A program made the position numbers and the translations under genes. The notes beneath the pieces are model-generated. The model worked only from the letters and a program-made list of their open reading frames with translations. It did not search any database and was not told the origin of the DNA. Below, in pieces: positions 22,094-31,885 of a stretch of DNA of 64,000 bases (within the stretch, counting starts at the first letter, position 1; each line of letters opens with the position of its first letter). Source of the DNA: Enterococcus silesiacus (GTDB lineage: Bacteria; Bacillota; Bacilli; Lactobacillales; Enterococcaceae); the NCBI GenBank assembly GCA_001465115.1, contig CP013614.1, positions 558,001-622,000 on the forward strand, read 5' to 3'.

Positions 22094-22402
22094 ATGGCAG
22101 AAGAGCATAACCACGAACATGATCACGAAGGACATGAACACATTACTTTAGTAGATGAACAAGGAAACGAAACATTATATGAAATTCTTTTAACCGTTGA
22201 CGGACAAGAAGAATTTGGTAAAAATTACGTTCTCCTTTATCCAGCTGGTGTTCCAGAAGAAGAAGATGTTGAATTACAAGCCTATGCTTACATCGAAAAC
22301 AACGAAGGAACAGAAGGCGAATTACAACAAATCGAAACAGACGCTGAATGGGACATGATTGAAGAAGTGTTCAATACATTCATGGCGGAAGAAGAAGAAT
22401 AG
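22094..22402 (+). CDS. DUF1292 family protein (YrzB)
   Basis: A 102-residue acidic protein with a His-rich N-terminus ([12 protein letters not shown] at 5-16) and the DUF1292 core ([23 protein letters not shown]). Function unknown. Third gene of the conserved ireB-ruvX-DUF1292 unit. Its last codons (F-M-A-E-E-E-E-stop) recur in a second copy at 27431-27453, on the far side of the accessory island. Confidence 0.9.
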
Positions 22403-22693: not shown

Positions 22694-22770
22694 ATTATTG
22701 TCTAATATAATCAACTTAGTACGATTACGTGTAGTTTTGGTAAACTAAAATAAAAAGGAGTCGAGTGATT

Positions 22771-23403
22771 ATGTTTACTAACCTAGTGAATCTATTTTTT
22801 GATGCTGAAGGATCTTTCCAATGGGCAAGCATTGCAGCAGGTATAAGTTTGATAGCCGCTGGTATCTCAATCTGGGGAACATTTAGAAATAACAAAATTC
22901 AGAAGGAGATTAATCAACAGAATATTGATGCTAACTTAAAATCAAAGGCTCGTCTTGAATGGATAAACAATGTGAGAAAGGAAACTTCTGAGCTTTTGAG
23001 CTTATCTGGTAGAAGACAAGCATATACATACAAATTAGAAAATCTATATAAAATGGGTGACTATTCTGATGTAGAAATAAAAGAGATAGAAAAGTTAAAT
23101 GTGGATATCTTTGAGGTAAGTAATAGTATAACAACACAGCTATATAAATTAAAATTAATGTTTGGACCGGAAAATGGTGAAATTTTAGAAGATGAGTACG
23201 GGCTGATTATGAGGGGGCAATGGGAGCAACTAGAATTATTCACTATAGGTACAAATTCCTATCAAAACGAGTCAAAAATGAAGGAATTAATAGATAAGTT
23301 GAGAGAAAAGGAGACAAATAAAGGTAAGAACGAAATAATAGTTGGTCTTATAAATATAATAATTCTATCGGTAATGTATGATCCAAAATTATTTGAGAGG
23401 TAA
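22771..23403 (+). CDS. Unknown membrane-anchored protein of the island
   Basis: A 210-residue protein with one N-terminal membrane helix (about 17-38, WASIAAGISLIAAGISIWG) followed by a long helical, charged cytosolic part and a short hydrophobic C-terminal segment (about 185-200). The stretch KARLEWINNVRKET just after the anchor recalls a group of small hypothetical proteins seen in prophages and islands, but I cannot name the family. A GTG at 22765 is also in frame; the ATG at 22771 sits ten bases after AAAAGGAG. Codon use is more AT-rich than in the flanking core genes. Confidence 0.7.
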   Translation: MFTNLVNLFFDAEGSFQWASIAAGISLIAAGISIWGTFRNNKIQKEINQQNIDANLKSKARLEWINNVRKETSELLSLSGRRQAYTYKLENLYKMGDYSDVEIKEIEKLNVDIFEVSNSITTQLYKLKLMFGPENGEILEDEYGLIMRGQWEQLELFTIGTNSYQNESKMKELIDKLREKETNKGKNEIIVGLINIIILSVMYDPKLFER

Positions 23404-23651
23404 GTAAAAAAAGCTGAAGAGGAAAAAAGACCAGTCAATTTTCGTACGTATCAAATTTATATACTGACTAAGACGTTGGGCAATATAATGCGATTGTACA
23501 TTAAAATTGAATGGGACTTAGCCAAAAAAGGAAAATAGAAAGAAAAGCCTTTATTCTTGAAAGTTATTTTACTTAAGAAAAGATTGAATTTGAATCAAAG
23601 ACAACAACCCTTTCAACTAAAAAAACACTTTCTCATCTTTAATTCCTTTTT

Positions 23652-23682
23652 CCCACTCAACCCTAATGAGTGGGTATTTTTT
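23652..23682 (+). terminator. Rho-independent terminator
   Basis: CCCACTCA (23652-23659) pairs with TGAGTGGG (23667-23674), followed by TATTTTTT. It separates the preceding gene from the candidate RNA downstream. Confidence 0.75.
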
Positions 23683-23762
23683 GGTTTCATATTTAAACAG
23701 TTCATACTTGTAGTAAATTGTAGTAGATCGCTGCATCTTTCTTTTTCAACGCTATATGTAAA

Positions 23763-24394
23763 GTGGCCGGTCGTAAATTAGGCCACCTCAAGATGATAGA
23801 CTAGGTATTTTCTAGTTCGTTTCATGTACGCCGTTTTGTCGGATATGAACAATAATGTTCAAAACTTCCTTTACTATCAGTGTCGGATAATTTTGACCTA
23901 TAGCTTGAAGAGTCGCCAAAATTAGTTAGTCCTAAAATAGCTGAGGGGAAAAGTTCCCTGACCTAACAGAGTTAATCACAAAAATGTGATAATTTATTGT
24001 ATATGAGTAAGTTAGACTTAGATCACCTAATGAATTGTTAGGTCATAATAATTAACCAGTGGGGAAATCGCGCTGGTAATGTGTAACGCTCACAAAAGTG
24101 TGATGGTAAGCATAACGCCTAATTTAAGAGGATCTGTCCAGAATTGGACAGATGTTTATATAGGGATCGTCCGGAAAACTGAATAAGTATTGTTCAGATA
24201 TGACGGATGATGCATCACTACTTAACCGATATTTTCGGAGTAATTAAGAATGAGCTAGGTTACTCAAAGTAACGCAGCTAACAAGGTATCTAAATGATAC
24301 TTAGTTACTGAACTAGGTAGAGAACTTTTACCAAGCCGCGGAAAAATTAAAGTACAAGAAAAGGAGATAGCCGTTAAGCTGTCTCCTTGTTTTT
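23763..24394 (+). ncRNA. Candidate large structured non-coding RNA no. 1 (ROOL/GOLLD-like)
   Basis: About 630 bases with no credible coding frame but a dense row of perfect short hairpins with A-rich loops. Examples: GTGGCC/GGCCAC (23763/23781); AATTTTG/CAAAATT (23889/23917); GGGAA-aag-TTCCC (23946); ATCACA-aaaa-TGTGAT (23975); ACCTAA/TTAGGT (24025/24038), with GTTAAT/ATTAAC (23971/24051) enclosing the last two; ACCAG/CTGGT (24055/24073); TCACA-aaag-TGTGA (24090); ATCTGTCCA-gaat-TGGACAGAT (24132); ATCGTCCG/CGGATGAT (24166/24204) around CTGAA/TTCAG; CTTAACCGA/TCGG..TTAAG (24221-24248); GTTAC/GTAAC (24259); GTATC/GATAC (24285). It ends in a strong terminator. Size, free-standing position and ornate multibranch layout recall ROOL or GOLLD RNAs. 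The family name is a guess; that this is a structured RNA is better supported. No clear promoter found. Confidence 0.5.
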
Positions 24395-24397
24395 TAT
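24363..24397 (+). terminator. Strong terminator ending candidate RNA no. 1
   Basis: GGAGATAGC (24363-24371) pairs with GCTGTCTCC (24379-24387) with one G-T pair, then TTGTTTTTT. No plus-strand coding gene precedes it within 950 bases, so it must end a non-coding transcript. Confidence 0.85.
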
Positions 24398-24903
24398 TCT
24401 AAATTAAAATCTATATCGCTATAATCTACGCAGCCGTTTGTTTTAAAATGTAATCCCGAAGTATAGGCTATATTATAATACATTGTAACGGGAGAATAAT
24501 TAGTTATACGATAATTTTCTCTACCTTTAGTTATTACGTCTTTCAGTGCATCATCGGTAGCAGGAGACGATTTAAGTGTAATTTCTTTGTCATCATTTAA
24601 CATTAAATCTTCTTTTTGAAAAATTTCGTTTCCGTAACTTCCATAATGCTCTAAATTATAGTAATCATTATTCTTGTTGTTTGGTTTTACCTTAAAAAGT
24701 ACTTTTGTAGCAAATTTAGTTTGATTTGTACTTTCTAAGTAAAAAACTCGGCTTTCTAATGGGCTTAGGACTAGTTTGTGCCTAACGATTGTTGCTCTTG
24801 TAGTTGGTCTCATAACTGATTCATCAGCATTTGCTGTCTTAGTTCCAACGAACACCCCGACTGCTACCATACAACTTGCGACTAACAAACTTTTCTTTTT
24901 CAT
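24394..24903 (-). CDS. Secreted protein of unknown function
   Basis: A 169-residue protein with a clean signal peptide (MKKKSLLVASCMVAVGVFVG, cleavage probably after TANA near residue 27) and no lipobox or sortase motif. The mature part is about 140 residues, rich in Asn, Tyr and Lys, with one Cys near the end, and looks beta-rich (RVFYLES, KVLFKVKP, YYNIAYTSG). No family recognised. The ATG at 24903 follows AAGGAG with normal spacing; a GTG at 24915 overlaps that site. It lies between the two candidate RNAs and converges on the terminator of the first. Confidence 0.75.
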   Translation of the reverse strand: MKKKSLLVASCMVAVGVFVGTKTANADESVMRPTTRATIVRHKLVLSPLESRVFYLESTNQTKFATKVLFKVKPNNKNNDYYNLEHYGSYGNEIFQKEDLMLNDDKEITLKSSPATDDALKDVITKGRENYRITNYSPVTMYYNIAYTSGLHFKTNGCVDYSDIDFNLE

Positions 24904-24960
24904 AAAATAAATCACTCCTTATCATTTGTAATTAAAATTTAACACAAAGAAAGTAATGGT

Positions 24961-25594: not shown

Positions 25595-26284
25595 ATGAGC
25601 AACTATTATTATTTAGTGAAAGAAACATCGAAAGCTTACGGACTATTAAGCTGGGTAGATAAAGTTCTTTACTATTTCATTATGATCATTGGGTTCATAT
25701 CAGCAATCGGCTTTTTTAATGAATCTCAAAGCTATAATCAAAGCGAGACAATGGGATTGACTTATATAATATTAGGAGCAGCGAGCTATTTTGGATCAAA
25801 GTATTGGAGGAATAAGATAGCAAAAGAAAGATGGCTAAAAACAAAAGGATTTTCTGAAGACGATATATTAAATATCAATTCAATTGATGCTTTAATTGAT
25901 GAGCTAGAAAAAAATTTGAGTAGTTTGAAAACTGTGTCTCAATGGGCGGTTGGAGTATTGACAACATTACTTGTTTTAATAAGTACGCTGATGGGCAATG
26001 CTATTTTTAAATTTATTGATATAGCTCTAAAAATCCTGAAAGATGAAGATATAAAAATGATATCAGATATGTTTGTTAAAGAATATAATAATTCGGGATC
26101 CTCTATATTTGAAATTATTTTTGGTAATGCTGGAAACCTTCTTTTATTATTTGTGTTTCCGATAGCGATAGGTTATCTACTGTTTTCAACGGTATCATTT
26201 ATACGAAAACAAGTTTTAGGAGTACTTTATGATGTAAGATATCATTTTTTATTGCATTTTGATAAAAAAGATAATGATATTTAG
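25595..26284 (+). CDS. Unknown four-helix membrane protein of the island
   Basis: A 229-residue protein with AAAAGGAGA before its ATG. Predicted helices lie at about 22-42, 52-70, 118-140 and 180-203, with a charged cytosolic loop (71-115) and a charged C-terminus. No signature motif is recognised. The first 40 bases of its leader follow directly on candidate RNA no. 2, so the two may share a transcript. AT-rich like its neighbours in the island. Confidence 0.7.
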   Translation: MSNYYYLVKETSKAYGLLSWVDKVLYYFIMIIGFISAIGFFNESQSYNQSETMGLTYIILGAASYFGSKYWRNKIAKERWLKTKGFSEDDILNINSIDALIDELEKNLSSLKTVSQWAVGVLTTLLVLISTLMGNAIFKFIDIALKILKDEDIKMISDMFVKEYNNSGSSIFEIIFGNAGNLLLLFVFPIAIGYLLFSTVSFIRKQVLGVLYDVRYHFLLHFDKKDNDI

Positions 26285-26288
26285 AACT

Positions 26289-26327
26289 ATGTATAGCGCC
26301 TAGGCTAATGAAAATTTTAGTGAAATT
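26289..26327 (+). repeat. Island repeat ATGTATAGCGC, copy 1
   Basis: ATGTATAGCGC, then a short variable part (CTAG), then GCTAATGAAAATT and AGTGAA. A second copy at 27280-27318 has the same order with ACCAC in the variable part. Both copies follow a gene of the island. Confidence 0.55.
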
Positions 26328-26467
26328 CAACGGAAAAATAGAAAATGAGCTTATAGCTATTTGACGTCATAAGTTTATTTTTTTTATGCTTATAATATTG
26401 GGAACTGAATATTTTATTTATGTCTATTTGTTAGTATAATTTATTTAAATAATAAGGAGAGAATTGA

Positions 26468-27220
26468 ATGAAGAATGAATTGGATAAACATTTGGTCGAT
26501 CTTAGTGAAGAAGAAGAGAAAGAGCTTATAATAAAAAATAGTAAATCAACTGTAAAATCAGTTGGGAAATCTGCTATTTCAAACTTAACCGGGGGACTTA
26601 TAGACACTTTTCTATGTGTATTCGAGGCGGAAAATGAACTTAATGAAGAAATTCGAAAAAGAAAAATAGAAAACTTGATTTCTACTTATATAACAAAGAA
26701 TAATAATCATGAAAAAAAGTTAGAGAAAATTAAAGAATGTATTTCTTTACCATATAATTACATGCTAATTCAAGAGAGCATAAAAATTTTTGATGAAAAA
26801 CCTTATGATGAATTAAGAACATCTAATATTGCGGGAATTATAGATAGAATTTGTTCAAAGAAAATAGAATCACCAAGTCAAGATTACTATGATTTTATTA
26901 ACCTATTGCATTATACTCGTATATTATCTCCTTATTCTATGAAGATACTAAAGGATATAAGAGGAAGAAATGGGATCCTACAAAAAATACAATACAAAAC
27001 AGAAGACGGGAACTTTTCTGGATCAGAAGATGGCGTATTCAGTAGATTTATTCAACCATATCAAAATAAAGATAACTTTAATGGTTATAGGCTAGGTATG
27101 GCAGAGCTAGTTAATGGTGGACACTTGAATATTCATCCTTCTGAAGATAATAAATATCTTTACATAAGTATTCCAACGGCTACTAAAATTTTGATTTTAT
27201 ATATAACTGGAAAAGTATGA
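26468..27220 (+). CDS. Unknown cytosolic protein of the island
   Basis: A 250-residue protein, ATG preceded by AAGGAGAG. The N-terminus is acidic (DLSEEEEKEL), followed by a weakly hydrophobic segment (about 38-60, SAISNLTGGLIDTFLCVF), a long helical middle (65-170) and a C-terminal part with GGHLNIHPSEDNKYLYISIP and a hydrophobic end (ILILYIT). It could associate with the membrane. I do not recognise the family. The shape, a helical body with a short beta-like tail, is reminiscent of abortive-infection type proteins, but that is only an impression. Confidence 0.68.
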   Translation: MKNELDKHLVDLSEEEEKELIIKNSKSTVKSVGKSAISNLTGGLIDTFLCVFEAENELNEEIRKRKIENLISTYITKNNNHEKKLEKIKECISLPYNYMLIQESIKIFDEKPYDELRTSNIAGIIDRICSKKIESPSQDYYDFINLLHYTRILSPYSMKILKDIRGRNGILQKIQYKTEDGNFSGSEDGVFSRFIQPYQNKDNFNGYRLGMAELVNGGHLNIHPSEDNKYLYISIPTATKILILYITGKV

Positions 27221-31644: not shown

Positions 31645-31885
31645 ACAAAAAAACTTCGCCTAAATAACTCAGCGAAGGGGGATTGAATTCAGCACAAATA
31701 GAGCTTTTCATCATTCTCATCGTTGAGTTTTAGCACTATGAAACGTAAAAAGCAGAGCTTTTAGCTACTTTGTGAAAAGCCTTAATTCGACAATTCCTGT
31801 CCTACCCATTCCTGTCTTTCGACATTTTTGAGCAGTAGCCTGTGTTTCCATAGGAGCCTCACCTAACAAGTTATTCAGATCGCCT
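31645..31885 (-). promoter_or_regulatory. M-box (ykoK) magnesium riboswitch
   Basis: Minus-strand sequence holds the conserved M-box core: TGTTAGGTGAGGCTCCT (31868-31852), then AGGCTACTGC, AAAATGTCGAAAGACA, AATGGGTAGGACAGGAATTGT (in parts ATGGGT, ACAGGAAT) and TTAAGG. The aptamer covers about 31885-31750. It is followed by a terminator, CTTCGC/GCGAAG (31677-31654) plus seven T. In known M-boxes Mg2+ binding favours termination, so downstream genes are expressed when Mg2+ is low. The downstream genes here are ftsW and rodA, not a Mg2+ transporter. Confidence 0.93.
31654..31677 (-). terminator. M-box expression-platform terminator
   Basis: Stem CTTCGC/GCGAAG with an 11-base loop and an uninterrupted run of T on the minus strand. 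Confidence 0.85.

Follow-up and report, generated by a model that had tools for sequence, protein, structure and literature searches.

A candidate large hairpin-array RNA beside an integrase remnant in Enterococcus silesiacus, and hairpin arrays of Lactobacillales prophages

Does a stretch of about 630 bases in the chromosome of Enterococcus silesiacus specify a large structured RNA, and, if so, does this RNA belong to one of the classes known from phages? The stretch occupies positions 23763-24394 of the DNA analysed here (64,000 nucleotides, hereafter the window), and the original prediction described it as a gene-free giant structured RNA with its own strong terminator, fitting the ROOL or GOLLD class. 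What large phage RNAs of the ROOL and GOLLD type do has yet to be established, according to a recent account (PMC12286853).

Structure and conservation of the element

Our analyses bear out that these bases contain no gene: the longest ORF lying wholly within 23763-24394 (among ORFs of at least 20 aa with ATG, GTG or TTG starts) is 35 aa in length, and the first 19 bases are overlapped by a 74-aa ORF. The claim that hairpins are denser here than in random sequence also holds, as 11 perfect hairpins (at least 5 Watson-Crick pairs, loop of 3-8 nt) are present, whereas 300 dinucleotide-shuffled versions average 3.6 (sd 1.7) and never exceed 9; one more hairpin, which includes a non-Watson-Crick pair, is formed by the terminator. 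The count alone is not unique, since the tile 26229-26860 also contains 11. That tile is an AT-rich region in which predicted ORFs are present. The folding z of the element is -10.35 on the + strand and -6.47 on the - strand (20 shuffles), and when the + strand of the window is scanned in 159 tiles of 400 nt (10 shuffles each) the tile at 24001 ranks first, with a z of -10.0 compared with -6.8 for the next. The GC content of the element (37%) is the same as that of the window. Together with the conserved structure and compensatory changes described below, the fold z and the tile rank uphold the prediction of a giant structured RNA, and the presence of a large structured RNA at 23763-24394 is well supported. 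The features of the locus are as follows.

22094-22402, + strand: DUF1292-type gene after ruvX; locus anchor, present in 22 of 22 genus genomes
23657-23748, - strand: remnant of a tyrosine integrase gene, adjoining the RNA; DNA homology to a fragment in G012
23763-23786, + strand: 5' hairpin GTGGCC/GGCCAC (fold and comparison); absent from both relatives
23810-24394, + strand: candidate hairpin-array RNA, the part homologous to G012, with gaps; the G012 blastn match begins at 23810
23812-23842, + strand: 5' strands of a predicted long-range closing helix (11 + 6 + 6 pairs with 24226-24258)
23846-23861, + strand: hairpin TGAACA-ATAA-TGTTCA (hairpin count and fold)
23869-23910, + strand: hairpin pairing 23869-23887 with 23892-23910 (fold)
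23905-23994, + strand: three-hairpin cassette, model R3 (pair counts and prophage matches)
24055-24077, + strand: hairpin ACCAGTGGG..CGCGCTGGT (fold)
24079-24224, + strand: second conserved core, model R2 (fold and model)
24226-24258, + strand: 3' strands of the predicted closing helix; part kept in G005, mostly deleted in G012
24259-24273, 24275-24310 and 24316-24332, + strand: three 3' hairpins (fold)
24361-24388, + strand: intrinsic terminator, shared with the convergent gene
24394-24915, - strand: convergent small secreted-protein gene, common to the window and G012

Within the cassette, the first hairpin (hp1) has an outer helix AAGA/UCCU with one mismatch (AGGA/UCCU in G012) and an NN/AG internal loop, and it is followed by hp2 at 23944-23959 and hp3 at 23975-23990. 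The second core comprises TCACA-AAAG-TGTGA at 24090-24103 with a GC/TG 2x2 loop at its flank, ATCTGTCCA-GAAT-TGGACAGAT at 24132-24153, and a stem formed by 24166-24173 and 24204-24211. Several loops are indeed A-rich and 3-5 nt long, but A-rich tetraloops are not universal, the loops of the 11 perfect hairpins ranging from 3 to 7 nt. The predicted nesting of hairpins between GTTAAT at 23971 and ATTAAC at 24051 stands only insofar as both sequences are present, for the minimum-energy fold instead pairs 23960-23968 with 24036-24044. The hairpin units are not sequence repeats, no tandem repeat being detected in the element at score 30.

The terminator is real and strong on the + strand, but the description of it as the element's own is only half right, because it also serves the convergent gene at 24394-24915; it likewise closes the paralogues of this gene in G001 and G008, and in G011 it sits after an apparently different gene. 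A promoter scan gave no + strand site in the interval from the integrase remnant to the RNA, and its sole + strand promoter-like site falls inside the element. No Pfam match at E 0.01 was obtained for the genes 22765-23403, 24394-24915, 25595-26284 and 26468-27220, the first of which matches phrog_19998, a family of unknown function; the convergent gene has no PHROG match at E 0.01 and no relative in IMG/VR. Other signals were also observed in the window. The interval 23596-23682 gives a sub-threshold match to Ref84 (25.9 bits; cut-off 52), and the block 23617-23690 recurs in 18 of the 22 genus genomes at 76-86% identity, its copies in L002 and L016 reading as a short frame with a ribosome-binding site; perhaps this block is a decayed antisense-RNA module. 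An M-box magnesium riboswitch at 31708-31877 (- strand, 148 bits) is the sole Rfam match over gathering score in the window.

Among the 22 genomes of the genus, blastn finds the element in three, viz. that of the window (G000), G012 (74%; 376 of 505 aligned bases identical) and G005 (71% and 81%, in two pieces), while most other matches represent the terminator or the block 23617-23690, both of which recur elsewhere. The three copies occupy the same place, after genes that we take to be ireB, ruvX and DUF1292. An HMM of the three copies, applied to this locus in the other 19 genomes (two of the stretches being shortened by contig ends), matched nothing beyond the terminator in G003 and fainter fragments in that genome, G010 and G019. 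Across the 22 genomes the locus after DUF1292 is an insertion hotspot containing small secreted proteins, genes resembling LXG-type secretion modules, and integrase remnants in G012 and G019. In G019 what remains is the C terminus of a phage integrase (E 2e-14 to Phage_integrase and E 6.5e-22 to phrog_1). The inner piece kept in G012 was recognised by no HMM, but one BLASTP comparison aligned it to a phage integrase at E 3e-4. Positions 23657-23748 of the window match this G012 fragment in blastn (E 6e-11, 70/95 identities); the 32-aa reading of the remnant is too decayed to give any HMM or BLASTP match. Because this interval is homologous to the G012 piece, which itself matches an integrase, the RNA directly adjoins an old integrase.

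Further searches for copies of the element led to several candidates that were set aside. Of the four loci retrieved by a pattern search of genome_contigs, two were the Enterococcus copies and the others (L038 and L040, from Bacteroidales and Porphyromonadaceae MAGs) looked like chance. Blastn matches of 31-38 bases in G018, G048 and G025 (E 6e-4 to 3e-3) were dropped, the HMM extending only that of G018, and weakly. The element has no blastn match among phages and plasmids, and patterns derived from it have no exact match in IMG/VR.

The consensus structure of the window and G012 copies contains 108 pairs, 10 of which are changed on both sides. The column-shuffled z of this alignment is -7.2 on the + strand and -5.6 on the - strand, and that of the three-sequence core is -3.2 on both strands; in each of six such tests, in which dinucleotides are not preserved, 0 of 100 shuffles were as good. 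The expected conservation in related enterococci is thus seen in the compensatory changes, but parts of the element are lost in both G012 and G005. Many pairs of the window-based fold are broken in these relatives; G012 alone folds with a z of -4.2, and G005 alone shows no advantage over its shuffles (z -0.42; 4 of 20 did equally well). The closing helix 23812-23842/24226-24258, with mean pair probability 0.86-0.89 in the window, has one strand lost or changed in each relative: its 5' strand, which can also fold locally, is kept in G012, where the 3' partner is lost, and is changed in G005. The middle 3' hairpin is partly kept in G005, and none of the three is found in G012. The relatives' copies have likely undergone decay or a change of architecture, and the element may by now be no more than a relic in Enterococcus.

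Hairpin arrays in prophages and in a viral contig

Covariance models R1 (23866-23994) and R2 (24079-24224) were each built from the three Enterococcus copies only. In 105 Enterococcaceae genomes, R2 was significant for these three copies alone, with the next matches at E 0.55 or more. The best further match of R1 was in G093 (E 0.008, about the chance level for 105 genomes), with a second G093 site 3 kb away (0.026) and a G103 match (E 0.019) ranking between the two. The G093 contig reads as a decayed prophage with a truncated terminase small subunit alongside a dnaC-like ATPase and a gene resembling late regulators. In an alignment of the three Enterococcus copies and both G093 sites (A7, five sequences), three hairpins lie in register, with 88.3% of cells paired compared with 31-40% when slid, and 7 of 20 pairs are changed on both sides.

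Model R3, built from A7, gave a match at E 0.2 in 20 of 395 Lactobacillales genomes, the strongest beyond the three copies being in G337 (E 2.4e-6 and 5.8e-4). Only G000 was found at E 0.02 in 398 genomes sampled from the class, and only G337 and G331 at E 0.1 in 76 genomes of the G337 family. The window displays the runs of A-rich-loop hairpins with covarying stems that characterise the R3 cassette, partly by construction, since it is itself within R3. Model R1 contains no prophage sequence, and on seven of eight wider loci fetched by R3 its four best matches all fall in the arrays of G337 and G272 (E 4.6e-4, 9e-4, 2.7e-3 and 5.4e-3), followed by G002 (0.011) and G331 (0.04); on the wider loci R2 gives G337 at 0.017 and G272 at 0.16. 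R3 also matches in L308 (from G216) and L239, with E 1.1e-4 in 41 kb. A cassette alignment of nine sequences (MAFFT), which omits G005 (second hairpin deleted), G331 and weaker R3 matches, pairs 92.0% of its cells (29-39% when slid) and shows two-sided changes in 15 of 20 pairs; its covariation is 0.703, compared with 0.239 when shuffled. Because five of the nine rows were chosen by R3 score and the structure was written with these sequences in view, this covariation constitutes support and not an independent test.

Certain R3 matches were rejected, that in G044 reading as a bidirectional terminator and those in G002, G127 and G288 showing no array in the wider loci; in L159 and L156 loose units reach 6 per 600 bases, but not at the site of the R3 match. 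Further matches occur in G041, G061, G063, G065, G137, G194, G311, G325, G332 and G412.

The most extensive array, in G337 (contig 33, L152 4900-6350), contains 18 strict hairpins compared with 3.75 in mononucleotide shuffles and begins about 0.6 kb past a truncated terminase small-subunit ORF. In its centroid fold an exact unit of 4 bp, a 2x2 loop, 5 bp and a tetraloop occurs three times, together with near variants, the loops being mostly AAAU, GAAU, AAAG or AAAA and the outer helix having at least 3 pairs in 9 of 18 called units. In the window, 24090-24103 is the one place where this full unit is clear, with an outer helix of 2 pairs; hp1 holds a degenerate form. The fold z is -9.97 for G337 (L152 5050-6000) and -5.33 for G272, in which an mscL gene separates the smaller array from a prophage integrase at a distance of about 0.8 kb. 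A second G337 array (contig 37), near a transposase-like gene, is 79-81% alike in four pieces, and a short version in G331 follows a dnaC-like gene and overlaps a predicted ORF start. Using the G337 array as a blastn query, hairpin runs were found in G397 (9, compared with 1.3 in shuffles) and G216 (4, compared with 0.8). A stretch of the IMG/VR contig L239, where reading frames are also listed, contains 17 hairpins compared with 3.9 when shuffled. Patterns of the G337 unit retrieved 46 and 93 IMG/VR stretches, and of 126 scanned only L239, L262 and L277 were dense, i.e., had at least 3 strict units within 800 bases. The conserved structure of the element, its better showing on the + strand, its orthology, the adjoining integrase remnant and its prophage relatives are observed; the link between the Enterococcus element and the prophage arrays could nonetheless be one of convergence.

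Several features of these loci may be recorded alongside. The terminase small-subunit ORFs of G093 (L127 6504-6770) and G337 (L152 3918-4286) match a 141-position Pfam model only up to positions 46-53, and the hairpin sites lie about 0.1 kb and 0.6 kb past them, respectively. An rli28 family RNA over gathering score is located at L127 7385-7544 (- strand), near the second G093 hairpin site. ARAATT-centred palindromes are found inside antirepressor-like genes in the IMG/VR contigs L250, L262 and L277, both orientations being represented when the L306 and L307 pieces (see below) are included; from their translations, we take the genes of all five loci to be Rha or BRO-N antirepressors. A palindromic piece of 21-25 bases at L152 5388-5425 recurs in Bacteroides phages (H21-H29), only at E 2 or more; in five of these phages it is near the genome end and in one it is in a terS gene.

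Against phages, blastn of the G093 and G337 stretches gave weak matches (E 0.3 or more) or none, and shorter pieces either matched at no better than E 2 or did not match. LT985572 contains 7 strict hairpins in 1.7 kb compared with 2.5 in shuffles (maximum 6 in 200), with A-rich loops in 3 and T-rich in 4; Javan201 has 2 compared with 0.8 in shuffles, and two Bacteroides phages show no clear hairpin run by eye.

Alternative explanations

The main alternative, which we doubt but to which we give appreciable weight, is that the hairpins are small palindromic DNA modules, mobile or maintained by template switching, which build up both in the non-coding DNA of phages and within antirepressor genes, in a part that tolerates them. 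Any structure in the RNA would then be a by-product, and compensatory changes would be produced by quasi-palindrome correction. DNA-level modules are indicated because pieces of 23-30 bases of the G337 array match inside the antirepressor-like genes L306 and L307, as well as in another array (L308), and like hairpins occur in such genes in L250, L262 and L277. The orientation of the loops is informative in both directions: it is mixed in L239 (8 A-rich, 7 T-rich), G216 (1 and 3) and G337b (13 and 5), whereas one strand carries the A-rich loops in the window (A exceeding T in 7 of 7 strict-filter + strand hairpins), in G272 (6 of 6) and in G337a (15 of the 17 that lean either way). The alignment z is strong on the - strand also. 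The strand bias in the window, G272 and G337a and the better fold of the + strand speak for RNA without being decisive. A further point against modules of this kind is that the architecture of loop and internal loop stays constant while the stems differ.

It is improbable, in our estimate, that the element is instead a single-strand DNA signal of an old mobile element, such as a replication or transfer origin acting through DNA hairpins. The element context and the hairpin density would suit such a signal, as would the position of prophage arrays near dnaC-like or terS genes, but no relaxase or Rep gene was noticed among the ORFs listed next to the copy in the window, no plasmid match was obtained, and the + strand gives the better fold.

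Assignment to ROOL or GOLLD, as originally suggested, was not sustained. In the comparison of 23400-24450 with all 4227 Rfam families using Infernal (cmscan), 16 weak matches were obtained; ROOL (RF03087; threshold 99.1 bits) did not reach its threshold, GOLLD (RF02032, with its conserved 3' region) was not matched, and neither was listed at E up to 10. No Rfam 15 family reached its gathering score on the element, and genome-wide searches with stricter filters found neither RNA in G000 at E up to 1. The ROOL model works in this family, because 7 of 105 Enterococcaceae genomes give full-length copies over the cut-off (200-246 bits; none in the genus); GOLLD exceeds its cut-off in 0 of the 105. 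The G012 and G005 homologues have no relevant Rfam match at E 1, no Rfam family matches either G337 array at E 1, and in L006, L007, L127, L152 and L153 only rli28 and a tRNA exceed the gathering score, both outside the hairpin sites. R3 has no match at E 1 on four of the seven ROOL loci, and blastn against all seven gave one match below E 0.01, involving 30 bases of G005 and lying outside the ROOL gene. The tRNA-island setting frequent for ROOL in phages, which is a tendency and no rule, is also absent, as ARAGORN finds no tRNA in the 64-kb window and the context consists of an integrase remnant only. Despite its size and prophage link, the element is therefore very unlikely to be a strongly diverged member of either class. 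That it is an AT-rich spacer in which hairpins arose by chance, as the equal hairpin count of one other tile might suggest, has hardly any likelihood in view of the fold z, the first rank among 159 tiles, the two-sided pair changes and the shuffled-alignment test.

Proposed function and comparison with known systems

We favour, with moderate confidence, the interpretation that the element is a structured RNA of the prophage hairpin-array kind, about 580 nt in length and encoded on the + strand. On this interpretation, an integrative element would have brought the RNA into an ancestral Enterococcus chromosome and left it downstream of ruvX-DUF1292 beside the now decayed integrase. The RNA would be a row of small hairpins, a number of them closed by A-rich loops of 3-5 nt, which the long-range helix may hold together. 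The related Lactobacillales prophage arrays would repeat one architecture with differing stem sequences, the fullest unit placing a 2x2 internal loop between helices of 4 bp and 5 bp, the latter capped by an ARAAU-type tetraloop.

Since the stems vary freely while the loop and internal loop are kept, it is shape and loop, not stem sequence, that would be read, and the many hairpin copies suggest multivalency. The likeliest mechanism, which we put forward tentatively by analogy with EutX/Rli55, is that the mobile element transcribes the array and the transcript acts as a multivalent scaffold or decoy, its target being a protein that recognises short stems bearing A-rich loops, either a phage regulator or a host RNA-binding protein. 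The kept loops, varying stems and many copies favour such a role, and EutX/Rli55 is a working analogue; an informal look at the arrays noticed no partner gene common to them. Perhaps the protein bound by the bait also reads the like hairpins in antirepressor mRNAs.

More speculatively, Lactobacillales prophages, and possibly phages beyond, may encode a new class of giant RNA, viz. modular strings of 0.3-1.5 kb composed of hairpin units with a 2x2 internal loop, an ARAAU-type tetraloop and freely drifting stems, serving as multivalent baits for a hairpin-reading protein, with a chromosomal copy kept in Enterococcus. The small, synthesisable repeat unit would then permit direct pull-down of the partner, and the covariance model and the locus are now usable for finding more members. 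We found no description of such hairpin arrays in the titles and abstract beginnings of the open literature searched.

Type III toxin-antitoxin RNAs are arrays of short structured units, but these are tandem sequence repeats, whereas the units of the element show no sequence repeats (score 30). Rickettsia palindromic elements are palindromes found in coding and non-coding DNA alike; in the hairpin arrays, unlike these, the stems vary while the architecture is constant. In a Lactobacillales phage, Oenococcus phage X27, a 650-bp stretch with four putative terminators has been described and likened to small non-coding RNAs (PMC12403621); this resembles the element by description alone and could represent another hairpin run. 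EutX/Rli55 is a decoy RNA that sequesters the ANTAR protein EutV via hairpins, and ANTAR targets are hexaloops with A at position 1 and G at position 4 (PMC8934654). The element shares with it the hairpins and the proposed sequestering of a hairpin-binding protein, but by inspection its AAAA, AAAG and GAAU loops do not follow the hexaloop A1/G4 rule. GOLLD (RF02032) is similarly a large prophage RNA, yet the element does not match its model. ROOL (RF03087), which forms a homo-octamer cage (PMC12286853), resembles the element in its length of about 600 nt, its many hairpins and its prophage linkage, and differs from it in that the element is a modular hairpin string and the ROOLs of the family have no notable sequence similarity to it. 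If the proposal is correct, these arrays would constitute a third, modular design of large RNA beside ROOL and GOLLD.
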